Under the pieces are notes generated by a model. The model had not been told where the DNA came from. It saw nothing but the letters and a program-made list of their open reading frames with translations, and ran no database searches. Both the position numbers and the translations under genes were made by a program. From positions 1-64,000 of the forward strand of contig JAIQFD010000008.1 in the NCBI GenBank assembly GCA_020073495.1: a stretch of 64,000 nt of DNA, in the 5' to 3' direction. Shown in pieces: positions 38,989 through 55,346 of the stretch (positions are counted from its first letter, which is position 1; each line of letters opens with the position of its first letter). This DNA is from Terriglobia bacterium. Lineage in GTDB: Bacteria > Acidobacteriota > Terriglobia > Terriglobales > Acidobacteriaceae.

Positions 38989-39628
38989 CTGCCAGACGGT
39001 CCGCGATGTCCCACTGGGCCAGCAGTGCCTGCGTCCGCGAGCGCGCAGGAGCGGCCATGAGCGCGGCCAGGTCGGAAGGCGTGTCGATGTCCAGGCCGAT
39101 GCCCGGAAGTTCGAGGACGACCACCGGCTTGCCGGTGGCAAGCGCTGCGTCGCGATGGGGAACAAAGCTGTCGTTGCCGAAGCGCAGGGGCATGAGGCTT
39201 GCGGGCCGGCGCAGGACGGCGTTGGAGCCGCGGCCATCGGCGGAAGGCACGAGCACGATGCCTTCCCGCGGCGCGGCGGCATAGACGGCGCTCAATTCCT
39301 CGCTCGTTACCAGCGGCATGTCTCCGGGGATGACGAGGGTTTCGGTGGCGCCGCGCTGCACGGCGGTCCGCGTGCCCATGGCGATCGCCCCGGTTTCGCC
39401 GGGATTGTCACGGTCCTCGATGACTTCGAAGTGGTGCCGCCGCGCCAGTTCGACGGCGCGGGGGTAGCTGGTCACCAGCGCAACCGGCGGATGCCCGCGC
39501 CAACCGGCCACCGCCGCCAGCACGTCGTCGAGCATGGTTTCGGCGAGCTGCGTCCGCTGTTCCTGAGGCAGGATGTCGGCCAGGCGCTGCTTGGCGCCGC
39601 GCAGGTCTTTTACCGGGACCAGGATCAT
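38972..39628 (-). CDS. cofC: 2-phospho-L-lactate/phosphoenolpyruvate guanylyltransferase
   Basis: 218 residues from ATG 39628. A nucleotidyltransferase that activates the phospholactate-type side-chain precursor with GTP for CofD. MILVPVKDLRGAKQRLADIL, IPGDMPLVTSEEL, PSADGRGSNAVLRRP and the late DIDTPSDL match the CofC/FbiD family. Whether it uses 2-phospholactate, phosphoenolpyruvate or 3-phosphoglycerate cannot be told by eye. Coupled to cofD by four bases. Confidence 0.93.
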   Translation of the reverse strand: MILVPVKDLRGAKQRLADILPQEQRTQLAETMLDDVLAAVAGWRGHPPVALVTSYPRAVELARRHHFEVIEDRDNPGETGAIAMGTRTAVQRGATETLVIPGDMPLVTSEELSAVYAAAPREGIVLVPSADGRGSNAVLRRPASLMPLRFGNDSFVPHRDAALATGKPVVVLELPGIGLDIDTPSDLAALMAAPARSRTQALLAQWDIADRLADAQRA

Positions 39629-40590: not shown

Positions 40591-41780
40591 GCAGCAGCCC
40601 CCTGCGCGTAGCCCTCGCTGTCCGTCGCCGCGGAAACGCGTTCGGCGAGCATCCCGCCGCGGGACAGAACCCGGGAAAGAAACTCAGGATACACGGTCAG
40701 GCGGTGACGCAGCGTGAAGCCGGCGGCTGCGGTCCGGGCCTGTAGGTCTTTCAGGTGCGGCCAGGGCGCCTCGGGATTGATGTAGTCCGGGGTCAGCGGG
40801 GAGATGCCACCCCAATCGTTGATGCCGGCGCGCAGCAGATCGGAGTAATCCGGCGAGGAGAGGTTCGGTGGTGCCTGCAGATTCATGTCGCGCAGCACCA
40901 GGCGCGCCACGGCAATGGTGCGCAGCATCTCGCCGCGGCCGGGTTCCGGCGACGCGGCCATCGGAATGTCCGGCTTGCTGCGAAAGTTCTGCACGATGAC
41001 TTCCTGGATGTGACCGTGACGCTCGTGCAATCGGCGGATCGCGAACAACGTTTCCACTCGATCGTCGAGCGTCTCGCCGATGCCGATAAGCAGTCCGGTA
41101 GTGAAGGGAACGCCACGCTTGCCGGCCTCCTCCGCGACCTGGAAGCGTTTGGCAGGGATCTTGTCGGGCGCATTGTCATGTGCCGCTTCGGGACGAAGCA
41201 ACGCGTCGGTGGTCGTCTCCACCATCAGCCCGAGGCTGGGGCAATACCGCGCGAGACGCTCGATCCATTCGCCGCTCATCAGCCCGGGGTTTGCGTGGGG
41301 CAGAAGTCCGGTCTCGCGCAGGACCAGTTCGCACATCGCTTCCAGGTAGTGCAGGGTGGACTTGTAGCCGAGCCGCTTCAGGGAGCCTCGCATCTCGGGA
41401 AAGAGCAGCTCCGGCTTGTCGCCAAGGCTGAACAGCGCTTCGCGGCAGCCCAGCTTCTCGCCCGCGCGCGCTACCTCCAGCACTTCGTCTGGGATCATCG
41501 TATGTGCTCCCGGCTGACCAGGATCCTTGCGAAAAGTGCAGTAGCGGCAGTAGTCGCGGCAGAGGTTGGTCAGCGGGAGGAAGACCTTCCGCGAATAAGT
41601 GATGATCCCCGGCCGGAACTGTTCTTTCAGAGCGGTGGCTGCCTTGAGCAGGAGGGGAAGCTCCTCGTCGCTGCAAGCTATGAGGCGGCAGGCCATTTCT
41701 GTGCTCACGGGCACGCCATGGCGCACCTCATCCAGGTACGACCCAAGCTGCGCCGGCGTCCGCTCTGGTGCTGATTTCAT
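40587..41780 (-). CDS. cofG: FO synthase subunit 1 (radical SAM)
   Basis: 397 residues. It is the partner radical SAM enzyme of CofH in FO synthesis. The cluster motif is C74-x3-C78-x2-C81 (TNLCRDYCRYCTF). GCREALFSLGDKPE, HANPGLMSGEW, TTGLLIGIGETLDDR and NDWGGISPLTPDYINPEAPWP are typical CofG blocks. It is the first gene of the F420 operon. Its start faces the molybdenum-hydroxylase operon across 130 bases, a shared divergent promoter region. Confidence 0.96.
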   Translation of the reverse strand: MKSAPERTPAQLGSYLDEVRHGVPVSTEMACRLIACSDEELPLLLKAATALKEQFRPGIITYSRKVFLPLTNLCRDYCRYCTFRKDPGQPGAHTMIPDEVLEVARAGEKLGCREALFSLGDKPELLFPEMRGSLKRLGYKSTLHYLEAMCELVLRETGLLPHANPGLMSGEWIERLARYCPSLGLMVETTTDALLRPEAAHDNAPDKIPAKRFQVAEEAGKRGVPFTTGLLIGIGETLDDRVETLFAIRRLHERHGHIQEVIVQNFRSKPDIPMAASPEPGRGEMLRTIAVARLVLRDMNLQAPPNLSSPDYSDLLRAGINDWGGISPLTPDYINPEAPWPHLKDLQARTAAAGFTLRHRLTVYPEFLSRVLSRGGMLAERVSAATDSEGYAQGAAA

Positions 41781-41910: not shown

Positions 41911-42804
41911 ATGTATCCACGCACATTCCAGTACCACCGTGCGGCTTCGCTGACGGAAGCGGCCGGCTTGCTGGCCGGCCTGGGGGAAGACGCCAAGCTG
42001 CTGGCCGGCGGGCAAAGCCTCATCCCGCTGATGAAGCTCCGGTTCGCCAATCCCGCGCACCTGATCGATCTGAACTTCATTCCTGGCACATCTTTCATCA
42101 AGCAGCAGAACGGCGCCCTCCACTTCGGGGCCATGACGCGCCACGCGGAGATCGAGGATTCTCCGGTCGCGGCCGTGGTTCCCATCATTCAGGACTGCGC
42201 CGCCGGCATCGCTGACGTGCAGGTACGGAACCGCGGGACCATCGGCGGCTCGATCGCTGAAGCCGATCCCAGCGGTGACTGGGCGGCATGCCTGCTGACC
42301 CTGCCGACCGAGGTGCGCTGCGTCAGTCCTCGCGGCGAGCGCACTGTGCCCCTGGCGGAGTTCATCACCGACGCCTACACCACGGTGCTGGCGAAGGATG
42401 AGGTGGTGAGCGAGATCGTGGTGAAGGTCCCCACGAAGAACAGCGGCGGGTGCTACCTGGCGTTCAAGCGAGCAGCACCCGTGTACCCCAGCGCCGCAGT
42501 CGGTGTGCAGCTCGCGCTGGAAGACGGCGTCTGTAAAGACGCGGCCATCATGCTCAGCGCCGTCGGGCTGACCGCCATCCGCGCACGCGAGGCGGAGAAC
42601 GCGCTGCGCGGCCAGTCGGTCAATGCGAAGAGCATCGAAGCCGCTGCCGAAGCCGCGCGCGCCGCCGCCGATCCTCAGCCGGACATGCGCGGGACGGCCG
42701 AATACAAGCGCCAGCTCGTGGCTGCACTGACCCGGCGCGCCATCCAGATCGCCGAGCGCCGCAGCCGTGGCGAGCGCGTCGAAGGAGGCCACATCTATGC
42801 CTGA
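41911..42804 (+). CDS. molybdenum hydroxylase FAD subunit (CoxM-like)
   Basis: 297 residues. The FAD-binding subunit of xanthine dehydrogenase/CO dehydrogenase-type enzymes. FAD motifs are [21 protein letters not shown] (about 28-48) and [24 protein letters not shown] (about 104-127); the C-terminal CO-dehydrogenase flavoprotein domain follows. It passes electrons from the Fe-S subunit to an acceptor. AAGGGGA precedes the start. It overlaps the Fe-S subunit gene by eight bases. First gene of a ten-gene co-directional run. Confidence 0.9.
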
Positions 42805-43294
42805 CGCGCAGCGCATCGCCATCAAGCTGAAGGTCAACGGCAAGGAATACTCGGCGAAGGTCGAGCCGCGGCTGCTGCTGGTCGAGTTGTTACGCGACGA
42901 GCTCGACCTGACGGGCACGCACGTGGGCTGCGATACCACCTACTGCGGGGCGTGCACGGTCTTATTCAACGGCGCGACCGTCAAATCCTGCACGATGTTC
43001 GCGGTGCAGGCCGACGGGGCGGAGATCGTGACCGTCGAAGGTCTGGCCAAGAACGGCGAACTGCATCCGCTGCAGCAGACCTTCGTGGACGACCACGGCC
43101 TGCAGTGCGGATACTGCACGCCCGGCATGCTCGTTTCCGGCGCGTACCTGCTTTCCAGGAACCAGCAGCCGACGGAGAAGGAGATCCGCAAGGGCATCGC
43201 CGGCAACACCTGCCGTTGCACCGGATACCAGAACATCTTCAAGGCGATCAGCGACGCTGCCGAGCGCATGAGGTCGAGCACGCATGGCGATTAA
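42797..43294 (+). CDS. molybdenum hydroxylase [2Fe-2S] subunit (CoxS-like)
   Basis: 165 residues from ATG 42797 (GGAGG upstream). Two [2Fe-2S] clusters: the plant-type ferredoxin set C45, C50, C53, C65 and the second set C104, C107, C139, C141 (CGYCTPG, TCRCTGY). All eight Cys are present. It links the Mo site of the large subunit with the FAD subunit. It overlaps the CoxG-like gene by 11 bases. Confidence 0.94.
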
Positions 43295-43724
43295 GTTTGG
43301 CGGGGAGTTCACGGTCAAGAAAACGCCCGACGAGGTCTACGACTTCCTCACCGATCCAAACCGGTTTGGGCCGCTGATGCCCGAGTTCCAGGGCCTGAGC
43401 GTGCAGGACCCGCAGCACTTCACGATCAAGGTGAACGTCGGAGTGTCGTACATCCGTGGCACCGCCGACGTGAAGATGCACCTGGCCGAGGCGGAGCGCC
43501 CGCGCCGCGCGAAATACGAGGGCAAGGGCGATGTCGCGGGCGGCGGCGCCACTCTGGTCGCGGGCTTCGACCTGGCGGGGGCGCCGGAAGGCACAAAAGT
43601 GGCGTGGGCTGGCGAGGCGCAGATCTTTGGCCGCTTGACCTCGCTAGCCGGCGGACTGCTGGAGCCGCTGGCGAAGAAGAACGTCCAAAAGTTGATCGAC
43701 GGCCTGCAATCGGCGCTGAGCTAG
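43284..43724 (+). CDS. CoxG-like SRPBCC-domain protein
   Basis: 146 residues of the CO dehydrogenase subunit G family: [28 protein letters not shown] near the N-terminus and [33 protein letters not shown] toward the end (parts shown). In carboxydotrophs CoxG helps dock the enzyme on the membrane or carry quinone. Its presence inside this operon suggests the hydroxylase delivers electrons to the respiratory chain. It lacks the C-terminal transmembrane extension found in some members. Confidence 0.85.
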
Positions 43725-43731
43725 GGAGCAC

Positions 43732-46197
43732 ATGCCAGACGAGAAAAAGAACGGGAACTGGGTGGGCAAGCCCATCAAGCGCAAGGAAGAGGCGCGGCTG
43801 GTGCGCGGCCGGGGGAAGTTCATCGACGACCTGAAGCCGGAGCGCTGTCTCTCCATGCGGCTGGTGCGCTCGCCCTACGCCCACGCCACCATCGATCGCG
43901 TGGATGTCTCGGCGGCCACAACGCTGCCTGGGGTCGTGTGCACGCTTACCGGTGAGCAGCTCGCGGGGCTGTGCGCACCTTTCATGGAGATTGGTCCCGG
44001 TGTCTGCGGCAAGATCAAGGACCTTCCCATGGCGCACGAAAAGGTCCGCTACCAGGGCGAGCCGGTCGCGGCCATCGTCGCGGAGTCGCGCTACATCGCC
44101 GAAGACGCGGCCGAACTGGTGCAGGTGGAGTACACGCCGCTCGAGCCGGTCATCGACGCTGAGTTCGCCGCGACCGATAAAAGCATCGTCCACGAAGGCG
44201 CAGGCTCGAACGTCATCTGGAATGGCACGTGGGAGTTCGGCGACGTCGAGAAAGCCTTCCGCGAGGCGGCGCACGTGGTCGAGATCGACCGAATGCACTT
44301 CCATCGCTTCTCCTCCACGCCGCTGGAGAACAACGTCATCATCGCCAAGTGGGACCTGAAGGAAGACCGCATCTACTTCCAGTGCAACAACTCCTTTCCC
44401 ACGATCGGTATTCAGCTTCTGGCGCCCTCGCTGGGCGTGCACATCGACCAGATCCGGGTAGAAACCTTCGACATCGGCGGCAGCTTCGGCATCAAGATCA
44501 ACAATTACCCGCAGATGGCCGTGGCGGCGCTGGCCTCGCGCAAGGCCGGCGGACGCTGGATCAAGTGGACCGAGACACGCTCCGAGCACATGAATTCGAG
44601 CGCGCACGGCAACGAGCGCACTTTCCGCGACACCAAGATCGCCCTCGATAAGGACGGCGTGATCACCGCCGTGGTTTCGAACCATCTCGACGATTGCGGC
44701 GCTTTCCCGCGCTACGAGCCGCTGGGAGCGGTGATCTGGTCGCAGGTGTTTCCCGCGACCTACCGCTTCAAGAGCGCGCGCATCGAGTTCACCCAGGTGG
44801 TCACGAACAAGACGCCGGTGGGACCGAACCGCGGCTACTCGCGCATGCAGCACCTGTGGTTCCTGGAGCGCTGCGTGGATCTCTGCGCGCATGAGCTCGG
44901 CATCCCCGCCGACGAGATGCGCCTGCGCAATTACATCCAGCCCAACGAAATGCCCTACACCACGCCCAATGGCTGTGTGTACGACTCGGGGAATTATCCG
45001 GGGATGCTGGCGCTGGCGAAGAAGCTGATCGACTACGACGGCTGGCGCAAGAAGCAGGCCGAGGCGCGCAGGGAAGGCCGGATGATCGGCATCGGGATCG
45101 GCACCACGCTCGATTCCGGCACCAATAATTTCGGACAGGCGCGCATCGTCAATCCCGACGCGCCCTTCAGCGGCAACTCGCAGGCGGCGAACGTCAAGCT
45201 CGACATGTTTGGCGAGGTGGTGGTCGCGGTCGGCTCCGTGCCGCAAGGCCAGGGCCATGAGACGGTCGCGTCGCAAGTCGTCGCCGACGTGCTCAACGTT
45301 CATCCCAACCAGGTCACCGTCCGGGCGGGCTTCGACACCGACCGCAATGTTCACACCGGCTTTACCGGCACCTACGCCAGCCAGTTCGCTGTTTCCGGAC
45401 TTTCGGCGGTGCACGGCGCAGCACAGAAGGTCAAGAAGGAGATACTCAGGTTGGCCGCGTTCGCGCTGCAGGCGAAAGAAGAAGATCTGGAACTCGGTCA
45501 CAACGAGCAGGGCGGCCTCGTGCGCGTGCGCGGCACCGAGAAGATGATCCCGTACATCGGGCTGGCGAACATCGTGAACACGAATTCGGCGGTCCTGCCC
45601 GAGGAGCTGTACGAACTCACGCTCAACTGCCGCTACACCTGGCGCGCGCCCTTCAAGCTGCCCGACATCGCGAAAAAGTACGGCAACCTGACGCTCACCT
45701 ATTCGGCGCAACTGCACATCGCTGTCGTCGAGGTGGATCGCGACACGTACGTGCAGAAGATCCTCGACTACGTCGCCATCGACGACTGCGGCAAGATGAT
45801 CAATCCGCTGATCGTCGAGGGGCAGGTGCACGGAGCGACGGCGCATGGCATCGGCGCCGCGCTGATGGAGTCCTGCGTGTACGACGAGTCCGGCAACCTG
45901 CTGACCGGGACGTTCAGCGACTACACCCCCATCACCGCGATGAACATGCCGGCGATCAAGTTCGGCTCCATCGAAACGCCGTCACCGCACACCTACAGTG
46001 GCGCCAAAGGCATGGGCGAGGGCGGCGCGGCGCCGATCCACGCCCTATCGGCCGCGCTCCAGGACGCGCTGTTCGAGCACGGCGTGATCGTCGACGACTC
46101 GCACAACACCGGCACCAGCATCTATCACGCGCTTCAGCGCGCGCGGGCAGGGCAAAAGTCGCAAAACGTCAAGATCGCGAGACGAGCGACCGCATAA
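43732..46197 (+). CDS. molybdenum hydroxylase large subunit (xanthine dehydrogenase family)
   Basis: 821 residues. The N-terminal hammerhead domain starts GKPIKRKEEARLVRGRGKFIDD. The Mo-cofactor domains contain FDIGGSFGIK, QGQGHETVASQVVAD and near the C-terminus GAKGMGEGGAAPI with the catalytic Glu. The active-site loop that reads AYxCSFR in true CO dehydrogenase (form I) and AYRGAGR in form II reads PNRGYSRMQH here (about residues 365-374). CO oxidation is therefore unlikely and another substrate, for example an N-heterocycle or aldehyde, should be expected. The panE-like gene starts at the next base after the stop. Confidence 0.92.
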   Translation: MPDEKKNGNWVGKPIKRKEEARLVRGRGKFIDDLKPERCLSMRLVRSPYAHATIDRVDVSAATTLPGVVCTLTGEQLAGLCAPFMEIGPGVCGKIKDLPMAHEKVRYQGEPVAAIVAESRYIAEDAAELVQVEYTPLEPVIDAEFAATDKSIVHEGAGSNVIWNGTWEFGDVEKAFREAAHVVEIDRMHFHRFSSTPLENNVIIAKWDLKEDRIYFQCNNSFPTIGIQLLAPSLGVHIDQIRVETFDIGGSFGIKINNYPQMAVAALASRKAGGRWIKWTETRSEHMNSSAHGNERTFRDTKIALDKDGVITAVVSNHLDDCGAFPRYEPLGAVIWSQVFPATYRFKSARIEFTQVVTNKTPVGPNRGYSRMQHLWFLERCVDLCAHELGIPADEMRLRNYIQPNEMPYTTPNGCVYDSGNYPGMLALAKKLIDYDGWRKKQAEARREGRMIGIGIGTTLDSGTNNFGQARIVNPDAPFSGNSQAANVKLDMFGEVVVAVGSVPQGQGHETVASQVVADVLNVHPNQVTVRAGFDTDRNVHTGFTGTYASQFAVSGLSAVHGAAQKVKKEILRLAAFALQAKEEDLELGHNEQGGLVRVRGTEKMIPYIGLANIVNTNSAVLPEELYELTLNCRYTWRAPFKLPDIAKKYGNLTLTYSAQLHIAVVEVDRDTYVQKILDYVAIDDCGKMINPLIVEGQVHGATAHGIGAALMESCVYDESGNLLTGTFSDYTPITAMNMPAIKFGSIETPSPHTYSGAKGMGEGGAAPIHALSAALQDALFEHGVIVDDSHNTGTSIYHALQRARAGQKSQNVKIARRATA

Positions 46198-47178
46198 ATG
46201 AAGAGGATATGCATCATCGGGGCGGGCGCCATCGGCAGCTTGTACGCCGCGCACCTGGCGCGTGTGGCCGAGGTGTGGTGCCTGGTCCGCCGCGAGGATC
46301 ATGCCCGTGCGCTCAATGAGCGCGGATTGCGCGTCTCCGGCACACACGAATTTTCCGCGAAAGTGAAGGCGGAGACACGTCCGGAGCGCCTACCCCAGTT
46401 CGACCTGGGCATCGTGGCGACCAAAGCGACACAGACGGACGAGGCGTTTCATCCGGTCGGTCACTTGTTCGACAAAGGCGCGGTGATCTCAGCACAGAAC
46501 GGGCTGGGCAGCGAAGAGATCATCGCCGCCCACACCAGTGGCAAAGTGATCCGCGGCACCACGTTCATGAGCGGAACCCGCCACAGCGACACGCACGTGC
46601 AGTACGAGCTCGATACCGCCACCTGGCTCGGACCATTCGAGCCGACCGGGACGCCGTTCTCCATGGTGAAGGAGGCGGCGGAGCTGATCATCGCCGGTGG
46701 TCTGAAGGCCGAGGCCCTCGAAGACTGCAAGCCGGCGCAGTGGTCGAAGCTGATCTTCAACGCCTCCGTCAATGCGGTCTCCGCGCTCACCGATCTGCCG
46801 CACTGCCGCGAGTTCGGCGACGAGAAGGACCTTGCGTCACTCGGCCATCTGATGCGCGCCTTGATCGAGGAAGGGAAGCGGATCGCCGCGGCTGCCGGCG
46901 TGCAGCTTCACGACGACCCCTGGGAGATGAACAAGATCGGCTGCCAGACCGACCATCCGACCTCGATGCTCTACGATGTCCGCCATCGGCAGCCGACCGA
47001 GGTGGATTTTCTGTGCGGCGCGATTGCTCGTGAAGCCGAGCGTCTCAACGTGCCCGCGCCGCTGAATACGGCCCTCTACCGGCTGATCAAGGGCCGGGAA
47101 CTCTCGTGGGATTGGGAGGGGGACACGCGCAAGACGACGGCCAAACACGCACTCGAATCGTACAGGATAGCCAAGTGA
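46198..47178 (+). CDS. ketopantoate reductase-like dehydrogenase, copy 1
   Basis: 326 residues of the PanE/ApbA fold. The Rossmann motif IIGAGAIGSLYAAHLA opens the protein, GIVATKATQTDEA and SAQNGLGSEEII follow, and the C-terminal helical domain has KLIFNASVNAVSALTDLPH and EVDFLCGAIAREAERLNVPAP, which contain the family's catalytic Lys/Asn/Ser/Glu positions. In this operon it is unlikely to serve pantothenate synthesis; a related 2-hydroxy or beta-keto acid step of a catabolic route is more likely. A second copy lies at 50948. The start follows the upstream stop directly (TAA-ATG). Confidence 0.85.
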   Translation: MKRICIIGAGAIGSLYAAHLARVAEVWCLVRREDHARALNERGLRVSGTHEFSAKVKAETRPERLPQFDLGIVATKATQTDEAFHPVGHLFDKGAVISAQNGLGSEEIIAAHTSGKVIRGTTFMSGTRHSDTHVQYELDTATWLGPFEPTGTPFSMVKEAAELIIAGGLKAEALEDCKPAQWSKLIFNASVNAVSALTDLPHCREFGDEKDLASLGHLMRALIEEGKRIAAAAGVQLHDDPWEMNKIGCQTDHPTSMLYDVRHRQPTEVDFLCGAIAREAERLNVPAPLNTALYRLIKGRELSWDWEGDTRKTTAKHALESYRIAK

Positions 47179-48428
47179 TGCCGACCACCGCCGGATGGCC
47201 CATCGACCGCATCAAGCTCCAGCGCGTCCACTCGTTGATGAAGCAGCAGGACCTGTCGGCGCTGGTCTGCCGCGCGCCCGACAACATCCTCTACCTGACG
47301 AACTATTGGTGCATGAAGGGATATGACGCTGTCGTATTTCCCGCCGAGGGCGATCCCGTGCTGTGTGTCATCGAGCCTCAGCTCGCCGACGCCGAGCGCA
47401 CCGCCTGGACCAAGAACATCCAGCTCTTCAAGGGGTACGACGAGAAGGACCCGCGTCCACCCAACTTCCGCTGCGTGGACCTGTGCGTCGAAGTGCTGCG
47501 CAAGAACGGGTGGATCGACAAGGTCGGGATCGAGTTGACGCAGGGGACACAAGCCGCCGACCGGATGGTCGGCGAGCCGACCGTCTTCTCGCAGACTTAT
47601 TTCGACACCTTCCGCGCCAAGATGGGGCAGATCGCCGACGCCACGCCCCTGCTGATCGAAGCCCGCGCCATCAAGACCGACCAGGAGATCGAGCGCATGC
47701 GCCTGGCCAACGAGCTGGCCGCCGAGGCGATGGATTACACCCGCGAGCGCATGAAGCCGGGCATGAAGGATAGCGAGGTCGCCGCTCTGTTCGAGGGCTA
47801 CGTCCACGGCGTCGGCGTCGGTTACAAGGGCAAGGTGGAGATGGCGCGCGCGTTCACGCTGGTGTGGTCGGGGCCGGGGATTGCGACCTTTACCGCGACG
47901 CGCGACCGCCCGGTGGTCGAGCACGAACCCACGCTGTTCGAGATCTGGGTGTGCGTGGACGGCTACTGGAACGATCTGACCAAGAATGTCTGCATTGGCG
48001 AGCTGACGAAGGAGTACAACCAGCTCCTCGATCTGCTGCTGAAGGTCTTTCACGAGGCCATCGCCTACGCCAAGGACGGCGCGGATTTCCCCGAGCTCGA
48101 CCGCATGATTCGCTCGCGCATCGCCGAAGGTGGATACCCCGGCCAGCCGTCGCATCCGGTCTGCCATGGGGTCGGGGCGCGAGCGCACGAACCGCCGTAC
48201 GCGCACCAGGCGGGAAAGGGGACCATCCGCAAGGGCATGGTGCTCGCCATTGAGCCGGGCATCTACTGGCCGGGCGGCGGCGGGCTGCGCCTGGAGGACA
48301 ATTTCCTGATCCAAAAAGAGGGCAACGAGAAGCTTTGCCGCTATCCCGACGATTTCCGGGTGTACAGCGCGGCGCGGCCCCCTCGGGCGCGCAGCGCGCA
48401 GAAGCCGCGCAGGAAACCGAGCAAGTGA
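47178..48428 (+). CDS. M24 family protein (Xaa-Pro peptidase/creatinase-like), copy 1
   Basis: 416 residues. N-terminal creatinase domain (about 10-155) and C-terminal pita-bread domain (about 165-400). The usual metal ligands D-D-H-E-E align with E255, D266, H330, E359 and E373, so four are kept and the first is Glu in place of Asp. Other landmarks are CHGVGARAHEPP and IEPGIYWPGGGGLRLEDN. It may still bind metal but may not be an ordinary peptidase; an amide or amidine hydrolase role is possible. The C-terminus is a basic Arg/Pro/Lys tail. It shares one base with the upstream stop (TGATG). Confidence 0.85.
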   Translation: MPTTAGWPIDRIKLQRVHSLMKQQDLSALVCRAPDNILYLTNYWCMKGYDAVVFPAEGDPVLCVIEPQLADAERTAWTKNIQLFKGYDEKDPRPPNFRCVDLCVEVLRKNGWIDKVGIELTQGTQAADRMVGEPTVFSQTYFDTFRAKMGQIADATPLLIEARAIKTDQEIERMRLANELAAEAMDYTRERMKPGMKDSEVAALFEGYVHGVGVGYKGKVEMARAFTLVWSGPGIATFTATRDRPVVEHEPTLFEIWVCVDGYWNDLTKNVCIGELTKEYNQLLDLLLKVFHEAIAYAKDGADFPELDRMIRSRIAEGGYPGQPSHPVCHGVGARAHEPPYAHQAGKGTIRKGMVLAIEPGIYWPGGGGLRLEDNFLIQKEGNEKLCRYPDDFRVYSAARPPRARSAQKPRRKPSK

Positions 48429-49708
48429 AAAACTCAATGAAGAAGGCCGCACAACAAAGATCACTCTCTCCTGCGCTGGTGGCGCGCATCCTCGCCCAGA
48501 TCGACGAGAGCGAGATCGTGCAAATGTCGTCCGATGTTGTGGACATTCCCAGCCCAACCGGCGAAGAGCTAGCGATGGCGGAGTATATGCGCCGCACCTT
48601 TAACGATCTCGGCCTGAACGTCACCTGGCAGGAAGTGGAGGAGGGCCGTGCCAACGTCGTCGCTCGCTGGGAAGGCCACGGTCGCGGCAAGAACCTGATG
48701 TTCAACGGCCACATGGACACGTCGAACACCGGCAAGGAGCCCTTCCTGACGGGCATCGGATACAAGCCGCACGCCATCGTGCGCGACGGATTCATCTACG
48801 GCCTCGGCATCTACAACATGAAGGGCGCGCTCGTCTGCTACACCCACGCGGTGAAGGCGCTGATGAAGGCGGGCGTGAAGCTCGCAGGCGATGTCATCAT
48901 CGGCTGTGTCGCCGGCGAGATCGAGAAGACGCAATGGGGCGAATACACCGGCCGGCAATATCGCGGCTACGGCGCCGGCACGCATTATCTCGTTAACCAC
49001 GGCATCCTGCCGGACATGTGCATCCTGGGCGAGCCGACGGACATGAAGCTGGTGCTGGAGCACAGCGGCTCCATGTGGGCGCGCATTTCGACCAAGGGCA
49101 TCTACGTCCACACCGCCTTCGCCGAGGGACGTGAGCAGCAGAACGCGCTGAACCGCATGTACGATGTCCTGGGCGACGTCAAGAAGTTCGCGCAGGAGTG
49201 GGCGAAGAAGACCGCATTCGGCGGCCACAAGGGCATCATCAACCTGGGCTGCCTGCGCGCTGGCGATCCCTGGCGCGCCAGCCGCACCCCTTCGTCCGCC
49301 GACCTGTTTCTTGACGTTCGTGTTCCGCCGCACATGGCGATGACGGAGGCGCGCCACCAGGTGCGGGACCTTGTCCGCGGGTTGCAGAAGAAGTTTTCCG
49401 ACTATGGCATCGAGTTCGAGACCTACGTCTCAGTTCCCGGCGCGACCATCAGCGAAGACCACGAGATGGTGAAAGCCATCGAGGCCAGCCACAAGCGCGT
49501 GCTGGGCAAGCTGCCCGGGCGCGACACCGTGCTGTGGTGCTCGGACGCGTCCGTCATGTCGCGCTTCGGCATCCCGACGGTGAACTACGGCCCATCGAGC
49601 GGCCCGCGCGACCACCAGGGGGAGAAGGTCGCGATCAAAACGCTGGTGGACATCACCAAGGTCTACGCGCTCACCGCGGCCGAGATCTGCGGAGTGCATT
49701 CATCCTGA
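48425..49708 (+). CDS. M20 family amidohydrolase (ArgE/DapE-like)
   Basis: 427 residues from the GTG at 48425, chosen because AGGAAA precedes it and it overlaps the upstream stop (GTGA); an ATG four codons later is possible. Metallopeptidase family M20 features: VVDIPSPTGEE, LMFNGHMDTSNTG (first metal His/Asp), YGLGIYNMKGALVCY (bridging Asp replaced by Asn in this position), VAGEIEKTQWGE (Glu pair), ILGEPTDMKLVLEHSG and the late YGPSSGPRDHQGEKV. The enzyme probably removes an acyl or carbamoyl group from an amine intermediate. Confidence 0.87.
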   Translation: MKNSMKKAAQQRSLSPALVARILAQIDESEIVQMSSDVVDIPSPTGEELAMAEYMRRTFNDLGLNVTWQEVEEGRANVVARWEGHGRGKNLMFNGHMDTSNTGKEPFLTGIGYKPHAIVRDGFIYGLGIYNMKGALVCYTHAVKALMKAGVKLAGDVIIGCVAGEIEKTQWGEYTGRQYRGYGAGTHYLVNHGILPDMCILGEPTDMKLVLEHSGSMWARISTKGIYVHTAFAEGREQQNALNRMYDVLGDVKKFAQEWAKKTAFGGHKGIINLGCLRAGDPWRASRTPSSADLFLDVRVPPHMAMTEARHQVRDLVRGLQKKFSDYGIEFETYVSVPGATISEDHEMVKAIEASHKRVLGKLPGRDTVLWCSDASVMSRFGIPTVNYGPSSGPRDHQGEKVAIKTLVDITKVYALTAAEICGVHSS

Positions 49709-49725
49709 GGCCCTGAACGAACCGA

Positions 49726-50892
49726 ATGTTCCCATCGCAAGCTGAGATCGGCCGCCGCTACAAGAACCTGCGCGCGACCATGCAGGCGCAGAAGGTGGAC
49801 GCGCTGCTCGTCTGCGGCAACCAGTACGCCGGGTTCGAAGGAGCGGTGCGCTACGTTTCCGGGTTCGAGATCGTTCACCGCTACGCGTACGTCCTGCTGC
49901 CCCTCGAAGGCGAGCCGACGCTGATCTTCCCGCGCGAGGCCCGCTGGATCGGCGACAAGAAGAAGCCCTGGGTGCGCGACCAGGTTTGGCCCGACCTCCC
50001 CGGCCGCTGGCTGCGCGAAAAAGCCGAAGAGAAGAAGTGGAAGCGCGTCGGCGTGTATGGTCTCGACCACATCCTTACGGTGCGTGACTTTCGCGAGATG
50101 GTGCAGGCAAGTACGGAGTGGGTGGGTTTCGATTTCCATTTCGACATGGCCCGCGCGGTCAAGAGCGACGAAGAACTCGTCCAGGTACGCGACGCCATGG
50201 ACATCATCGAGGACGGTTTCTGGGCGCTGGTCGCCGCCTACAAGCTCGGCCGCACCGAGGCCGAGATCATGGCCCCCGCGGTCGAGCGTTTCTTCGCCCG
50301 CGGCGCCGGATCGCGCATGATGAACATACTGCTCTCGGGCACGAACGGCGAGGCCGAAGCTGCGTTCAAAGTCCCCGGCCACCGCGTGGTCGGGCGCGAC
50401 GACCTCATGCTCTACTCGCTGGAGATCACCGGCTCAGAAGGCTACTGGGTCGAGTTCTCTCGCGCGCTCATCCAAGGCAAGCCCAGCAAGCGCACGCTGG
50501 AGATGAAGGCGGCATACCCCGAAGCGACGGAGGCTGCGCGTTTGCTCATGCGCGAAGGAGAACTTGCCAGCACCGTGCACAAGGCGGTGGCGGATACCTT
50601 TGCCCGGCACGGTTTTTCCCTCGGGCACCTCTCCGGGCATTCCATCGGCCTTACCATGCTGGAGCACCCGGCGGTCGGTGCCAAGAGCGACATCGAGCTC
50701 AAGGAAAACATGATCTTTTCGCTGCATCCACAAGTCGTGGACCAGGATGGCGCCGTTTGCCTCTACACCCAGGACACCTTCCGCATCGGCAAAAAGGTCG
50801 GTGAAAATCTTTCGGAGATCGAGTGGAAGTTTTACGACGGGAGCGAGAAGGCCCCTCAGAAAAAGGCAGCTGCTCGCGCTAGGCGCAGTTAA
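49726..50892 (+). CDS. M24 family protein (creatinase-like), copy 2, metal ligands lost
   Basis: 388 residues with the creatinase N-domain and a pita-bread C-domain. The ligand positions align with E233, E243, H305, H334 and Q349, so only the His is kept; SLHPQ replaces the usual EPG and YTQDTF replaces RxEDT. Loss of the metal set is known in creatinase itself, which hydrolyses creatine with a His and no metal. This points to a metal-free C-N hydrolase or a non-catalytic partner. GHLSGHSIGLTMLEHP keeps the substrate-binding His pair. The gene is 17 bases after the M20 gene. Confidence 0.83.
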   Translation: MFPSQAEIGRRYKNLRATMQAQKVDALLVCGNQYAGFEGAVRYVSGFEIVHRYAYVLLPLEGEPTLIFPREARWIGDKKKPWVRDQVWPDLPGRWLREKAEEKKWKRVGVYGLDHILTVRDFREMVQASTEWVGFDFHFDMARAVKSDEELVQVRDAMDIIEDGFWALVAAYKLGRTEAEIMAPAVERFFARGAGSRMMNILLSGTNGEAEAAFKVPGHRVVGRDDLMLYSLEITGSEGYWVEFSRALIQGKPSKRTLEMKAAYPEATEAARLLMREGELASTVHKAVADTFARHGFSLGHLSGHSIGLTMLEHPAVGAKSDIELKENMIFSLHPQVVDQDGAVCLYTQDTFRIGKKVGENLSEIEWKFYDGSEKAPQKKAAARARRS

Positions 50893-50932
50893 CTGAGTAC
50901 CGAGTACCGAGTACCGAGTACTGAGTACTTCA
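50893..50932. repeat. AGTACCG tandem repeat
   Basis: Five near-identical seven-base units (GAGTACC or GAGTACT) run between the second M24 gene and the second panE-like gene. The related cluster at 22348-22395 has the same GTAC core. Possibly a hypermutable or structural spacer. Confidence 0.6.
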
Positions 50933-50947
50933 GTTTTGAGAGCGGAA

Positions 50948-51871
50948 ATGACACGCATCTGTGTAATCGGTTGCGGAGCCGTAGGCAGTCTCTTCGCCGC
51001 GCATCTGGCGCGGCTGGAGGGAGTCGAAGTCTGGGCTTACGACGTCAGCAAGCCGCATGTGGACGCCATCAACCGCGCCGGCCTGCGTTTGAGCGGCGCG
51101 GAGGACTTCACCGCCAAGCTGCGCGCCTCTAACGACGCTGCACAGATTCCCCGTTGCGACTTCGGTATCGTGGCCACTAAGGCCATACACACTGCCGGCG
51201 CCATAAGGCAGGCGGCCCGCGTATTCGACGACAAGAGCGCGATCTGTTCCGTCCAGAACGGCGTGGGTAACGAGGAGCTCATCGCGGAGCACGTGAAGTA
51301 CGTCATCCGCGGCACCACATTCCCCGCCGGGCACCTGGTCGAGCCGGGTCACGTCGGCTACGACATCAAGGGCGATACCTGGATCGGCCCCTTCGAGCCC
51401 GCCAACACGCCCATGGACATGGTCGAGCAACTCGGCGCGGTGATGACGCGCTCCGGCATGAACACCATCGTGCTGTCCGACGCCCGCGGCGCGCAGTGGA
51501 CAAAATTGATCTTCAACGCCGCAACAAATCCCGTTGGCGCGCTTACGCGCCTGCATCACAGCGCGGCCACGCGCTTCGGCCCGACCGGCGATCTGTTCGA
51601 GGCCCTGATCCGCGAAGGCGAGGCGGTCGCGAAAGCGCAGGGCATCACTCTGCACGGAGATCCGCGCGAGATGGTTCGGAAGGGCGCGCAGGCCCCGGGC
51701 GAGCACAAGGCCAGCATGCTTCAGGACGTCGAAGCCGGACGGCAGACGGAAGTGGATTTCATGAACGGCGCCATCGTGAAGTGGGGAGAGAAGTTCGGCG
51801 TCCCGACGCCGTTGAATAAGATGGTTTGGCAGCTGGTGAAAGGCCTGGAGCGCTCGTTCACAAACCCGTGA
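50948..51871 (+). CDS. ketopantoate reductase-like dehydrogenase, copy 2
   Basis: 307 residues from ATG 50948. Same fold as 46198: CVIGCGAVGSLFAAHLA, FGIVATKAIHTAGA, CSVQNGVGNEELIAEH, KLIFNAATNPVGALTRLHH and EVDFMNGAIVKWGEKFGVPTP. It is moderately similar to copy 1, including shared RGTTF and WIGPFEP / WLGPFEP segments that suggest an old duplication within the pathway. It may act on a different intermediate of the same route. The 55-base gap upstream carries the AGTACCG repeats. Confidence 0.85.
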   Translation: MTRICVIGCGAVGSLFAAHLARLEGVEVWAYDVSKPHVDAINRAGLRLSGAEDFTAKLRASNDAAQIPRCDFGIVATKAIHTAGAIRQAARVFDDKSAICSVQNGVGNEELIAEHVKYVIRGTTFPAGHLVEPGHVGYDIKGDTWIGPFEPANTPMDMVEQLGAVMTRSGMNTIVLSDARGAQWTKLIFNAATNPVGALTRLHHSAATRFGPTGDLFEALIREGEAVAKAQGITLHGDPREMVRKGAQAPGEHKASMLQDVEAGRQTEVDFMNGAIVKWGEKFGVPTPLNKMVWQLVKGLERSFTNP

Positions 51872-51943
51872 TTTGAAGGGGCGCAGCTTCAGCTGCGCCG
51901 TAGTGGCAAGCACAAAAATGGGGCTTTAGCCCCTGAGGGAACA
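51872..51943 (+). repeat. two adjacent hairpins between panE-like and LLM genes
   Basis: GGCGCAGCTTCAGCTGCGCC is a near-perfect 9-bp inverted repeat, and GGGGC-TTTA-GCCCC is a second short hairpin about 28 bases later. Neither has a U-run, so they look like intergenic structural repeats or mRNA-processing/stability elements rather than terminators. Confidence 0.6.
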
Positions 51944-53044
51944 ATGTCGGTCCCATTCCGCATCGGTGTACTGCAACTGAGCATGGAGCCGCTGGACCAG
52001 ACGGTCCGCATGGCGAAGGCCTGCGACGCAGCCGGCTTCGACATCTTCTGGCTGGCCGAAGCCTATCCCTGGTGGCGCAAGCACGGCATGGAGGCGCGCT
52101 CCTCCACCGCCATGACCGCTGTGATCGCGCATGAGACCAAAAGACTCGCCATCGGCTGGGGCATCATCTCGCCCTACACTCGCCACCCCGTGCAGATCGC
52201 CATGGAAGCGCGCGTGCTCCAGGACGCCGCCGGCCCGGACCGCTTCATCCTCGGACTCGGGGCGTCGAAGATCTTCATGAAGGAGATCGGCGAGGGCGAG
52301 AAGGGCAAGGAAGTCGGCCCCGCCACCGTCATGCGCGAGAGCCTCGATATCGTGAAAGCCGTGCTCGACGGCGGGGAGGTGAAGTACGAAGGCAAGGCCT
52401 TCCAGGCCTATGCGCCACCGCTCCACTCCGATGCGCACGTGCGTCGCGAGCGCATCCCCATGTACATCGCAGGCACCGGCCCTGTCCTGCAGAAACTGGC
52501 GGGCTCGCACCCGGCTTCCGACGGCCTGCTCACCGCCAGCATCACCACTCCCGCATTCGTCCGCTACTCCAAGCAGAACTTGGACGAAGGCGCGAAGAAA
52601 GCCGGGCGCGACCCTGGTTCGCTCGACCTTGGTTCAGTGATCGTTGGCAGCGTAGACCGCGATTCGAAGAAAGGCAAGGAAGGCGCGCGCGAGATGGCGG
52701 CTATGTACCTGGCCAACAAGGTGCAGAACATCAAGGGCTCGGCTGACGTGCTGCTGCAGAGCGCGAATCTCACGTTCGAGGAGCTGCAACCGATCGCAGA
52801 TGCCATGGAACGCGGCGGGCGCAAAGCTGCCGCTCAGGCAGTGACCGATTCCATCCTGGCCAAGGCCTGCGCCATCGCGGGAACGCCCGATGAGTGCATC
52901 CAGCGTATCGAGGAGTACCGCGCCGCCGGATGCACCAACATCATGCTCGAGATCTGGGGCGACAACCGCGAGCAGCAGGCGCGCCTGTTCGGCGAGGCCG
53001 TTCTGCCCCACTTCCGCAGGTACGGCGTTGGGCAGGGAAGATAA
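51944..53044 (+). CDS. luciferase-like (LLM) F420/flavin-dependent oxidoreductase
   Basis: 366 residues with GAGGGAAC upstream. TIM barrel of the luciferase-like family: IGVLQLSMEPLDQTVRMAKACDAAGFDIFWLAE at the N-terminus (part shown), GWGIISPYTRHPVQIAMEARVLQDAAGPDRFILGLG, PMYIAGTGPVLQKLAG and the C-terminal IAGTPDECIQRIEEYRAAGCTNIML. This pattern is nearer to methylene-H4MPT reductase and other F420-dependent LLM proteins than to monooxygenases, so F420 is the likely cofactor. It is the last gene of the run that diverges from the F420 biosynthesis operon. Substrate unknown. Confidence 0.88.
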   Translation: MSVPFRIGVLQLSMEPLDQTVRMAKACDAAGFDIFWLAEAYPWWRKHGMEARSSTAMTAVIAHETKRLAIGWGIISPYTRHPVQIAMEARVLQDAAGPDRFILGLGASKIFMKEIGEGEKGKEVGPATVMRESLDIVKAVLDGGEVKYEGKAFQAYAPPLHSDAHVRRERIPMYIAGTGPVLQKLAGSHPASDGLLTASITTPAFVRYSKQNLDEGAKKAGRDPGSLDLGSVIVGSVDRDSKKGKEGAREMAAMYLANKVQNIKGSADVLLQSANLTFEELQPIADAMERGGRKAAAQAVTDSILAKACAIAGTPDECIQRIEEYRAAGCTNIMLEIWGDNREQQARLFGEAVLPHFRRYGVGQGR

Positions 53045-53116: not shown

Positions 53117-54325
53117 TCATTTCGTTGCAGACTTGGCGGAAGTTCGGCGAACGATCTCGCGAAATTCGTCGTCGGTCACCAGCCCGCGCTTCTCGATGCC
53201 GCGTTGCTTGACGGCGGCGAGCACAGCCATCCGTTGTTCCTGCGGGACCTGCAGGTCCAGTTCCTTGGCTTTGATGTCGATCGAATCGATTCCGCTCTTC
53301 TTGCCCAGGACCAGCTCGCGCCGGGCCTGCACCAGCTCGGACGAATAGGGCTCGATGGCCTCGGGGATGTGGAACTGCGTGGCCACCGCGCCGCTCTCGC
53401 GCATGAACAGCGTTTCGCCGACCACGGGCTTCCACGGCTCGAGCTGGTATCCGGAGAGCTTGCGCACCGTCTCCGAAACCTCGCGCGCCTTGGCCAGGTT
53501 CAGCGCCACCGGCACGCCGTACACGCACTTCAGGGCCAGCGCGACCTCCGCAATGTCCGCATTCCCGGCGCGCTCGCCCATGCCGTTGATCGTTCCCTGG
53601 ATCCAGGACGCGCCCGCGCGCACCGCGGCCACCGCGCTCGCCGTCGCCATGCCGAAGTCGTTGTGGCCGTGGAAGTGGATGGGCATCTCCGGCCCCACCC
53701 ACGACCGCACCTGGCTGACCAGGTAGAACACCGCCTCCGGCCCGCAGACACCGATGGTGTCCACCACCACGATCTCGGCCGCTCCGGCTTCGATCGCTGT
53801 GAGATACGCCTTGCGCAGGAATTCGAGATCGGCGCGTGTGCCATCCACGGGGAAAAAGGCCACCCGGATCCCGTGTTCCGTGGCGAACTTGATGGCGTTG
53901 GTCAGCCGCTGCAGGGCCTGTTCGCGGCCGATCCCGTATGCGTTCAACTTGAGGTCGCTGGTCGGGACCTCGATCACCGTTGCCTTTACCCCGAGCTTGA
54001 TGAGTTCCTCGATGTCGGCGGCGACGGCGCGCGCAAAGCCCCATACCTCGGCCTTCAGGCCGGCGTGCGACACCAGCTTGATGGCCTCGGCATCGTCCGC
54101 CGACACGCGCGGGAAGCCGGCCTCGATGCGGCCGACCCCCAGTTCGTCCAGCTTGCGCGCGATCTCCAGCTTCTGCTGCGGTGTGAGCACAACGCCAACA
54201 GTCTGCTCGCCATCGCGCAACGTGGTGTCGTAGAAGCGCACCGGGCCGCCGTAGGCGAACTCCGGTCGGATGCCGGGTCGGCGGTTCAGTTCGCTGGTCC
54301 AGATCTTGTCTCCCACGTTGGCCAT
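53117..54325 (-). CDS. DRE-TIM metallolyase (homocitrate/isopropylmalate synthase family)
   Basis: 402 residues. The DRE-TIM signature FYDTTLRDGEQTVGVVL (about 31-47), IEAGFPRVSADD and the metal-binding HFHGHNDFGMATA (about 218-230) followed by INGMGERAGNADIAEV place it with homocitrate/2-isopropylmalate synthases. These condense acetyl-CoA with a 2-keto acid. There is no C-terminal LeuA allosteric domain. The C-terminal segment GKKSGIDSIDIKAKEL resembles homocitrate synthase-like proteins. It is the last gene of the minus-strand operon and lies one base after the FAA hydrolase stop. Exact substrate unknown. Confidence 0.82.
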   Translation of the reverse strand: MANVGDKIWTSELNRRPGIRPEFAYGGPVRFYDTTLRDGEQTVGVVLTPQQKLEIARKLDELGVGRIEAGFPRVSADDAEAIKLVSHAGLKAEVWGFARAVAADIEELIKLGVKATVIEVPTSDLKLNAYGIGREQALQRLTNAIKFATEHGIRVAFFPVDGTRADLEFLRKAYLTAIEAGAAEIVVVDTIGVCGPEAVFYLVSQVRSWVGPEMPIHFHGHNDFGMATASAVAAVRAGASWIQGTINGMGERAGNADIAEVALALKCVYGVPVALNLAKAREVSETVRKLSGYQLEPWKPVVGETLFMRESGAVATQFHIPEAIEPYSSELVQARRELVLGKKSGIDSIDIKAKELDLQVPQEQRMAVLAAVKQRGIEKRGLVTDDEFREIVRRTSAKSATK

Positions 54326-54326
54326 G

Positions 54327-55346
54327 TTACGAGCCCGCCCTGGCGGCCTTCGGCGGAGGCCCGCCGTGTGCCTGCTCCCAGGAGATCACGGGATTGCGCA
54401 GCACGCCGATCTTCTCGATCTCGCACTCCATCACGTCGCCCGGTTTCAGGTACCAAGCCTTGGGATCGCTGCTGAAAGCGGCCACACCGGAGACAGTGCC
54501 GGTCGAGAGCACGTCACCGGCGCTGTAGCCCATGGCCGAGTAATGCGCCAGGATCTGCGGGATCTTCACTGCCATCTTGTTGGAGTGCGAGCGCTGCCGC
54601 ACTTCGCCGTTCACACGAAGTTCCATGGCCAGGTTGTGCGGGTCGGGGATCTCGTCTGGCGTCACGATGTGCGGCCCCAGCGGGCAGAAGGTATCGATGC
54701 CCTTGCAGAAGCTGAACACCCCCGACTTCATCTCCTGGCGCTGGATGTCGCGTGCGGTCACATCGTTGAAGATCACGTACCCACCGATGTAGTCCGCCGC
54801 TTCCTTCTCCGTGAAGTGCTTGCCCGCCTTCTTGATCACCACCGCCAATTCGAGCTCGTAATCCAGTTCCTGGGTCAGGTGGGACGGGTACACCACCGGC
54901 TCGTCGGGGCCGATGATGGCGTCGATGTTCTGGAAAAAGACGATCCAGGGCAGCACGGGATGCGAGAAGCCTGCCTTCTGCGCCTCTTCGTCGTGCTCGC
55001 GGAAATTCCCCGCGGTGTGGAAGAACTTTCGCGGGATGATGGGCGCTTTGATCTTCACTTCCTTCGCGCCATAGAGGATGCGTTCGCCCGCGGGGCTCTG
55101 TGCCTGCGGGCCGCGCTTCAGGGCGTAATCGAATGCCTTGCGGGCATCCTCGACCGCGCCCTCCATGAACAACTTGCGCATGTTCGGCGGGACGTGCCGC
55201 TCGGCCGCGCGCTGCTCGTCTTTCTGCTCCTCGACATCCTTGAGATACAGCGCATAGGCGGCGGTCAGGTCCACGATCTCGCCCGATGGCGTGCGGGCTC
55301 CGATACGTCGGCGTTTCGACGGGTCTTCGAAGGTGACGAGTTTCAT
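54327..55346 (-). CDS. fumarylacetoacetate hydrolase family protein
   Basis: 339 residues. The FAH C-terminal domain shows KFFHTAGNFREHDEE, the metal-binding ELDYELELAVVIKKAGKH (Glu-x-Glu), IFNDVTARDIQRQEM, FSFCKGIDTFCPLGP and LSTGTVSGVA. These enzymes hydrolyse or decarboxylate acylpyruvates and ring-fission products. The partner genes (a tryptophan-dioxygenase-like oxygenase upstream and a DRE-TIM lyase downstream) suggest an aromatic or indole ring-cleavage route. It is three bases from the upstream gene. Confidence 0.87.
   Translation of the reverse strand: MKLVTFEDPSKRRRIGARTPSGEIVDLTAAYALYLKDVEEQKDEQRAAERHVPPNMRKLFMEGAVEDARKAFDYALKRGPQAQSPAGERILYGAKEVKIKAPIIPRKFFHTAGNFREHDEEAQKAGFSHPVLPWIVFFQNIDAIIGPDEPVVYPSHLTQELDYELELAVVIKKAGKHFTEKEAADYIGGYVIFNDVTARDIQRQEMKSGVFSFCKGIDTFCPLGPHIVTPDEIPDPHNLAMELRVNGEVRQRSHSNKMAVKIPQILAHYSAMGYSAGDVLSTGTVSGVAAFSSDPKAWYLKPGDVMECEIEKIGVLRNPVISWEQAHGGPPPKAARAGS

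Follow-up and report, generated by a model that had tools for sequence, protein, structure and literature searches.

A conserved F420-linked gene cluster of uncultured Acidobacteriota as a candidate for an undescribed catabolic pathway

Methylene-tetrahydromethanopterin reductase (Mer) is an F420 enzyme and the nearest relative of one protein encoded in the locus described here, while two others share their fold with M24 metallopeptidases, which hold their metal with a D, D, H, E, E set, and with creatinase, a metal-free enzyme. Nicotinate and other N-heteroaromatic pathways of the Eubacterium barkeri type rely on ferredoxin for ring reduction and on an enamidase. Regarding F420 itself, a 2021 review, in the parts available to us, places Acidobacteria among the phyla with F420 genes and reports no experiment on the role of F420 in bacteria outside Actinobacteria (PMC8498797). 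No F420 function in Acidobacteriota was found among the titles and abstract beginnings listed in our literature search. We analysed a window of 64,000 nt from a Terriglobia bacterium (contig JAIQFD010000008.1, GenBank assembly GCA_020073495.1), in which ten plus-strand genes at positions 41911-53044 lie next to a divergent F420 operon. We regard the cluster as a strong candidate for a catabolic route not yet described and for one of the tasks of F420 in uncultured Acidobacteria.

Pfam assigned all ten genes to families, listed below; for panE1 and panE2 the score of the NCBIfam subfamily TIGR00745 is given.

41911-42804, plus strand: coxM, FAD subunit of a xanthine-oxidase-family molybdenum enzyme (PF00941, 157 bits; PF03450, 75 bits)
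42797-43294 (start 42797 or 42767), plus strand: coxS, 2x[2Fe-2S] subunit (PF01799, PF00111)
43284-43724, plus strand: coxG (PF06240, 82 bits)
43732-46197, plus strand: coxL, molybdenum subunit (PF02738, PF20256, PF01315)
46198-47178, plus strand: panE1, ketopantoate-reductase-fold dehydrogenase (TIGR00745, 228 bits, cut-off 141)
47178-48428, plus strand: m24a, creatinase/prolidase-fold hydrolase (PF00557, 133 bits)
48437-49708, plus strand: m20, ArgE/DapE-type M20 amidohydrolase (PF01546, PF07687)
49726-50892, plus strand: m24b, creatinase-fold protein without the M24 metal set (PF00557, 78 bits)
50948-51871, plus strand: panE2, ketopantoate-reductase-fold dehydrogenase (TIGR00745, 220 bits, cut-off 141)
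51944-53044, plus strand: llm, Mer-type LLM (luciferase-like) oxidoreductase, presumed F420-dependent (PF00296)

For all ten genes these families agree with a first-pass annotation of the same DNA, which had named a molybdenum hydroxylase, two PanE-like, two M24, one M20 and one LLM protein. Its description of the genes as mostly overlapping or less than 20 bases apart holds for seven of the nine junctions (-8, -11, 7, 0, -1, 8 and 17 bases, with starts as listed) and fails for the last two (55 and 72 bases).

We searched the window genome and 60 relatives for CoxL (matches listed to E 1e-60), which revealed orthologues with 66-91% identity in ten relatives. Nine of these belong to the same family and one (G055; G and L numbers denote genomes and loci) to another family of the class; the remaining listed matches reached at most 38% identity. 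All ten genes were present in the same order and direction in nine of the ten relatives, with insertions in G019 and G026. The tenth, G004, carries the locus on two contigs and has neither panE1 nor m24a between coxL and m20. The first-pass annotation had proposed a neighbourhood search across phyla. Our search for m24b covered one genome per species in 84,980 species and returned 63 loci, all titled as metagenome-assembled genomes of Acidobacteriota groups; since the patterns were two exact short peptides, distant relatives, including those in other phyla, would be missed. The full order was found in 34 of the 63 loci, 23 were cut by contig ends without contradicting it, and six departed from it: L051 (the same contig as in the G004 case), L098 (coxG not found), L099 and L103 (cofD directly after m24b), L100 (the 3.5 kb ahead of m24b contain no cluster gene) and L102 (m24b facing away from panE2 and llm). 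Thus, the genes are not scattered in relatives, a finding that would have spoken against the cluster as first annotated. Since the order is conserved in relatives, the gene cluster is not due to chance, and the ten genes are one evolutionary unit, usually together with the two downstream genes hmgl and faah. The 63 loci overlap the genomes of our other counts (for example, L051, L053, L055, L064 and L083 match in length contigs of G004, G005, G011, G015 and G010, respectively), so the counts are not independent. Across 396 genomes spread over the phylum, m24b was detected in five, the window genome included. Residue conservation is given below for alignments of 9 to 11 rows per gene, from which rows with internal stops (e.g. 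m24a of G012), the coxL fragments of G004 and the hmgl fragment of G010 were left out. In plasmid records, searches with m24b, m24a, llm and panE2 found only places below 60% identity, and the six neighbourhoods examined there were other gene sets.

Three genes converge on the cluster from downstream.

53117-54325, minus strand: hmgl, isopropylmalate/homocitrate-synthase-like protein (PF00682)
54327-55346, minus strand: faah, fumarylacetoacetate (FAA)-hydrolase-fold enzyme (PF01557, 229 bits)
55350-56090, minus strand: tdo, divergent tryptophan-2,3-dioxygenase (TDO)-like heme protein (PF03301, 73 bits over 35)

The genes hmgl and faah lie beside the cluster in the window genome and in eight of the ten CoxL relatives (with gaps of 2.5 and 1.3 kb in G026), and both are present in 24 of the 39 m24b loci with downstream room. 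In G010 the contig ends inside hmgl. In G019 they stand in line between panE2 and llm, a placement inside the cluster that ties them to the unit. The list of ten genes initially drawn up was therefore incomplete, as in most loci hmgl and faah are members of the unit, and tdo may be a further one. Hmgl is nearest to isopropylmalate and homocitrate synthases, with scores that stay below each of their cut-offs (299 of 463 bits for TIGR02660, the best equivalog), and has the RDGEQ motif in 9/9 rows, a pattern of Claisen-type synthases. For Faah, whose histidine-glutamate stretch is kept in 9/9 rows, the nearest solved structures are FAA-hydrolase, 5-oxopent-3-ene-tricarboxylate decarboxylase and diketo-deoxyrhamnonate hydrolase, with acylpyruvase ranking lower. 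Directly after faah, a third M24 protein is encoded in L086 (L086:17203-18498) and five other loci; judging by its N-terminus it is apparently exported.

Upstream of coxM and separated from it by 130 bases, the F420 genes run on the opposite strand from 41780 down to 36249; the first-pass annotation had described the two operons as divergent. They were assigned by Pfam, except that cofG was named from its position and the radical-SAM family PF04055.

36249-37256, minus strand: npdG, presumed F420:NADP oxidoreductase
36998-38305, minus strand: cofH
38218-39282, minus strand: cofE
38972-39742, minus strand: cofC
39625-40590, minus strand: cofD
40587-41780, minus strand: cofG

Among 249 genomes of the window's order, m24b was found in 29, CofE (PF01996) in 58 and both in 27. 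CofE thus occurs in 27 of the 29 m24b carriers versus 31 of the 220 non-carriers (Fisher test, p ~8e-18, kinship not corrected for). The two carriers without CofE, G481 and G004, have CofG less than 1 kb from a contig start, so that 29 of 29 carriers contain F420 genes by CofE or CofG, with the 220 others scored by CofE alone. In 11 of the 27 genomes with both, m24b and CofE share a contig and are no more than ~30 kb apart. In L099 and L103, cofD stands directly behind m24b in the same direction (L103:8068-11201); panE2 and llm were not found in that stretch. The link between the cluster and F420 is strong, and the 31 non-carriers with CofE imply another role of F420 there.

The candidate F420 enzyme is Llm. 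Its nearest solved structure is Mer (1ezw, E 1.7e-36), its nearest NCBIfam family is F420_mer (TIGR03555, 146 bits, cut-off 349), and the stretch GIISPYTRHP is found in 11/11 rows, hence we presume from its sequence that Llm is F420-dependent. LLM proteins include both F420 and flavin mononucleotide (FMN) enzymes, and for Llm none of the 25 NCBIfam families listed scored over cut-off; furthermore, m24b and the F420 genes are on separate contigs in 16 of 27 carriers. It is nevertheless quite unlikely that Llm is an FMN monooxygenase and that the proximity of the F420 genes is a regional coincidence, given that its best solved relatives are F420 enzymes, that Mer-like stretches are kept, that every carrier has CofE or CofG and that cofD is in line with the cluster in L099 and L103.

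Two further gene sets adjoin the F420 operon. Histidine biosynthesis genes lie upstream of it in the window (30100-35885). An OsmF/ProV-type (quaternary-amine) ABC transporter adjoins it in L123 (L123:684-2979), L142, L148 and others, in carriers and in some non-carriers. We rejected this transporter as a part of the pathway, since it is also found behind the F420 genes in two of ten loci without m24b (L142, L148) and therefore belongs with the F420 operon; L149, another locus without m24b, showed only a 39% ATPase match to it.

Subunits L, M and S plus CoxG, which serves electron transfer to quinone, are all present as in aerobic CO dehydrogenase. We rejected a CO dehydrogenase function on account of the absent cysteine loop and the scores under cut-off (NF040766, 518 of 950; TIGR02416, 423 of 991). 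At the place of the cysteine-bearing active-site loop, which we take to be AYxCSFR and which is visible in the aligned CoxL of M. smegmatis, alignments to the PDB sequences and among the rows place PVGPNRGYSR in 9/10 CoxL rows and PVAPNRGYSR in G026. The stretch KGMGEGGAAP with the GEGG glutamate of the family is kept in 10/10 rows. The nearest NCBIfam families of CoxM and CoxS are the beta (267 bits, cut-off 350) and gamma (259 bits, cut-off 290) subunits of glyceraldehyde dehydrogenase, both under cut-off. The ring hydroxylation originally assigned to the molybdenum enzyme is therefore no more favoured than the oxidation of an aldehyde.

The two M24 proteins and the two PanE-like proteins, which the first-pass annotation had named by family, differ from each other within each pair. 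In M24a the second D, H, E and E of the metal ligands are kept and the first D is replaced by E, as judged from spacing without structural alignment. In M24b the ligand places hold S, E, H, H, Q instead of the D, D, H, E, E of the aligned structure 2zsg, constant in 11/11 rows. Because these residues replace the metal ligands, M24b is probably metal-free like creatinase, whose structure 1chm is among its matches. The dehydrogenases differ at the end of the second strand, where PanE1 has VRR in 10/10 rows and PanE2 AYD in 11/11 rows (AFD in L102), which would indicate a preference for NADP and NAD, respectively; the PanE equivalogs listed in the NCBIfam scan all scored under cut-off for both. 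M20 scored 191 bits against TIGR01910 (cut-off 218). The nearest solved structure of M24a is an Xaa-Pro dipeptidase, with the ectoine hydrolase DoeA also among the matches. Ectoine degradation was rejected, the match of M24a to the DoeA-type family TIGR02993 being weak (70.5 bits, cut-off 613); M24b reached 33.7 bits, and neither protein is a member. The dipeptidase relatives of M24a would suit an operon for scavenging peptides or amides, with M24 and M20 proteins that act as ordinary peptidases and with redox genes that are unrelated passengers. We consider this very unlikely, as the hydrolases stand in a fixed order with redox genes around them and M24b has no peptidase metal site.

In many relatives the cluster is part of a longer operon. 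We compared 15 superloci, picked partly for linked F420 genes, by tblastn. Among relatives with linked F420 genes, the fullest order comprises the F420 operon, then divergently a gene for a GntR regulator, a TonB-receptor-like outer-membrane protein (family OMP_b-brl_4), a flavin reductase, an LLM monooxygenase (LLM2), two membrane proteins (mem390 and mem164) and the ten genes. Of these superloci, 11 contain the TonB-receptor-like protein, 8 GntR, 6 the flavin reductase and 6 LLM2; the membrane pair occurs in 11 of the 15, inverted and set apart in G026. The flavin reductase (132 bits against StyB, cut-off 200) is not specific to the cluster, as it is also located near cofG in 6 of 10 loci from F420-bearing genomes without m24b (L140-L143, L148, L149). 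LLM2 also occurs in G428, a genome without an m24b match.

On this basis, we propose that the cluster codes for the aerobic, F420-requiring catabolism of a nitrogen-containing acid, a reading whose chances we regard as evenly balanced. The likeliest class of substrate would be a carboxylated nitrogen-containing aromatic compound or heterocycle. CoxMSL would oxidise the substrate, either at a ring carbon next to nitrogen or at an aldehyde, and together with CoxG could pass the electrons to the quinone pool. Since NpdG is encoded in the operon of the window, F420H2 can come from NADPH, and Llm might use it to reduce a C=N or C=C bond and thereby break aromaticity. M24a, M24b and M20 may then hydrolyse C-N bonds, PanE1 (with NADP) and PanE2 (with NAD) may interconvert 2-oxo and 2-hydroxy acids, Faah could cleave an acylpyruvate-type product, and Hmgl could condense a 2-oxo acid with acetyl-CoA. 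The last two steps extend the degradation logic first suggested, as any route put forward has to accommodate an enzyme of the acetyl-CoA-condensing type and an FAA-hydrolase.

Hmgl also fits a different use of the cluster, namely the building or tailoring of a metabolite such as an unusual amino acid or a cofactor. Chain elongation of the isopropylmalate synthase type and F420-dependent reduction are both known in biosynthesis, and Hmgl has RDGEQ and is nearest to synthases. An F420 enzyme of the LLM type acts in lanthipeptide biosynthesis, according to the part of the review consulted (PMC8498797). Such a function seems unlikely to us. No nonribosomal peptide synthetase, polyketide synthase or carrier-protein gene was present among the profiled genes of the window between 30 and 64 kb, where not every gene was profiled; GntR and the TonB-receptor-like protein head the operon in relatives, and three hydrolases and an FAA-hydrolase fit breakdown better.

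Several observations weigh against the catabolic, F420-dependent pathway. No transporter was found within the cluster of the window and no ring-cleaving dioxygenase in the core gene set, and by tblastn the GntR and receptor genes are not beside the cluster in the window, G001, G005 and G523. Both hmgl and faah are absent from 12 of the 39 loci with downstream room, and G011 has ~7 kb of downstream sequence without them. The best scores of CoxM and CoxS suit an aldehyde as well as a heterocycle. On the side of F420, the Fisher value carries the kinship among genomes, and both the 16 of 27 carriers with CofE on another contig and the 31 of 220 genomes with CofE and no m24b count here too. Furthermore, all 63 loci are from metagenome-assembled genomes. 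Between cluster genes, the distance matrices show no more than moderate correlation (median Spearman 0.52; minimum 0.005, m24b versus llm) and do not strongly support strict co-inheritance.

Where more than 1 kb of sequence precedes coxM (38 loci), the membrane pair of the long operon (L058:478-2141 and equivalents) was present in 32. Mem390 was detected in 23 of the 249 genomes of the window's order, 21 of them among the 29 m24b carriers and two, G542 and G557, without an m24b match; it was not found in the searched genomes of the window and its sister G001. Pfam held no family for either protein, and NCBIfam none over cut-off. Together, the two proteins consist of three repeats that are homologous to one another (28-32% identity; hhalign, on alignments of low diversity) and all carry an invariant HxH; the two proteins have eight main plus four predicted helices.

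The models, which are of good quality (mean predicted local distance difference test, pLDDT, of 82.5 for mem390 and 92.0 for mem164), were compared with solved structures, Z values being computed only on chains ranked by Foldseek. That of mem390 reached Z 19.4 over 271 residues to cbb3 oxidase, and the 50 rows listed were terminal oxidases, nitric oxide reductases and their supercomplexes. The mem164 model reached Z 12.3 over 129 residues to residues 376-525 of cytochrome c oxidase subunit I and Z 11.2 over 131 residues to styrene oxide isomerase. Unrelated four-helix membrane enzymes (mPGES-1, LTC4 synthase) gave up to Z 10.4, so that the match of mem164 alone proves little, and as Z values below ~13 are common for helical bundles, this likeness is suggestive only. 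Foldseek gave no match at E <=0.001; the best was E 0.045 (mem390), and styrene oxide isomerase ranked second for mem164 with E 0.47. At E <=5 the mem390 profile had a single PDB match, styrene oxide isomerase 30tw (E 2.4, not significant alone), and the mem164 profile had none.

Heme-copper oxidase subunit I is composed of three four-helix units with twelve helices. The first histidine of HxH in repeat 2 aligns with the heme histidine of styrene oxide isomerase, taken as H58 from the H-to-N spacing, and repeats 1 and 3 have HxH as in repeat 2; the place of N64 is F in repeat 2, with no N at +6 in repeats 1 and 3. According to its structural description, styrene oxide isomerase forms a homotrimer that carries heme b at the interfaces, in which H58 binds heme and N64 and Y103 position the epoxide, and for which the authors' DALI search found no substantial similarity (PMC11374702). 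No publication joining this isomerase and heme-copper oxidases was found in the literature searched. As far as the models go, the membrane pair resembles both in predicted fold, which is suggestive.

In G542 (L172, G542:C50), the membrane pair is accompanied by a TDO-like gene with 69% identity, and both lie without the F420 cluster beside a salicylyl-CoA 5-hydroxylase region, with scores over cut-off for salicylyl-CoA 5-hydroxylase/oxidoreductase (1301 bits, cut-off 1078), the indolepyruvate oxidoreductase beta family (680, cut-off 348) and the benzoate-CoA ligase family (381, cut-off 375). In G428 (L176, G428:C52), the pair lies beside a protein with UbiD and metallo-beta-lactamase domains and also beside a molybdopterin oxidoreductase set (Fe-S, NrfD-family) and an LLM2 that is 79% identical. 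These settings would point to aromatic catabolism as the setting of the pair, and by association they would, together with the TDO-like genes near the cluster, favour a substrate of the indole or anthranilate type. In L174 (35% identity) and L175, distant copies of this membrane protein were observed near a TonB-receptor-like protein and a protein that reads as metallo-beta-lactamase-like.

A narrower version of the pathway may be put forward tentatively, in which the substrate is a compound of the indole or tryptophan type. The TDO-like protein would open the indole ring, M20 and M24 proteins would remove the formyl or amide group, the FAA-hydrolase would cleave an aroylpyruvate, and the PanE-like pair would handle aryl-2-oxo and 2-hydroxy acids. 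TDO-like genes stand next to the cluster in the window, G001 and 6 of the 63 m24b loci, in several arrangements, and the G542 copy lies with the membrane pair amid salicylyl-CoA, indolepyruvate and benzoate-CoA genes. However, of the 39 loci in which more than 3 kb follow llm, only 5 have such genes, tdo is far under the TDO equivalog cut-off (TIGR03036, 101 bits, cut-off 391), and neither a kynureninase nor an anthranilate gene could be recognised in the cluster. It may further be speculated, as a doubtful extension, that F420-dependent aerobic breakdown of an indole- or anthranilate-type compound involves, in the long form of the operon, a membrane heme protein whose three units are split over two chains (8 and 4 helices, one HxH per unit). 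This protein would bridge styrene oxide isomerase, in which three single units form a homotrimer, and heme-copper oxidase subunit I, in which three units are fused. It would either isomerise an epoxide and supply the product to the molybdenum enzyme or take up electrons from that enzyme. If the predicted likeness is true, the protein would be an intermediate stage linking a heme epoxide isomerase with respiratory oxidases.

The cluster gives the role of F420 in Acidobacteriota a testable target, with defined genes, one candidate F420 enzyme and few substrate classes. From the first-pass annotation, an undescribed F420-linked cluster stands as a conserved unit with a link to F420, whereas the substrate named there, an N-heterocycle or amide, and the order of steps are inferred. 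In agreement with its statement that no characterised pathway has this gene set, our literature search, thin in its coverage of subscription journals and preprints, gave no match among the papers listed, and a search for a trigonelline-type pathway gave none for all terms.

Among known systems, the nicotinate and N-heteroaromatic pathways of the Eubacterium barkeri type resemble the proposed route in that a molybdenum hydroxylase acts first, followed by ring reduction, hydrolytic opening and a 2-hydroxy/oxo acid dehydrogenase; in place of ferredoxin reduction and the enamidase, the cluster offers a Mer-type LLM protein and M24/M20 proteins. DoeA and creatinase use the creatinase fold for C-N hydrolysis, as we propose for M24a and M24b, neither of which belongs to the DoeA-type family. 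Mer provides the nearest family and structures of Llm, which scores well below the cut-off of that family. A region on pNG700 of Haloarcula marismortui (L158) has an LLM gene with 26.9% identity near genes of the molybdenum-hydroxylase and Zn-hydrolase types, but differs by a nucleobase permease, amidohydrolases and BMP transporters and shares no gene order with the cluster; this region possibly serves purine use. Lastly, the long operon can be set beside the styrene upper pathway StyAB-StyC-StyD (see also PMC5874493). Both combine a flavin reductase and a monooxygenase (in some loci), a membrane protein, which in the long operon is predicted to resemble StyC, and then an oxidising enzyme. Unlike in the styrene pathway, the monooxygenase of the long operon is of the LLM type, the oxidising enzyme is molybdenum-dependent, and the membrane protein is split 2+1 with HxH motifs and without the N64 of StyC.

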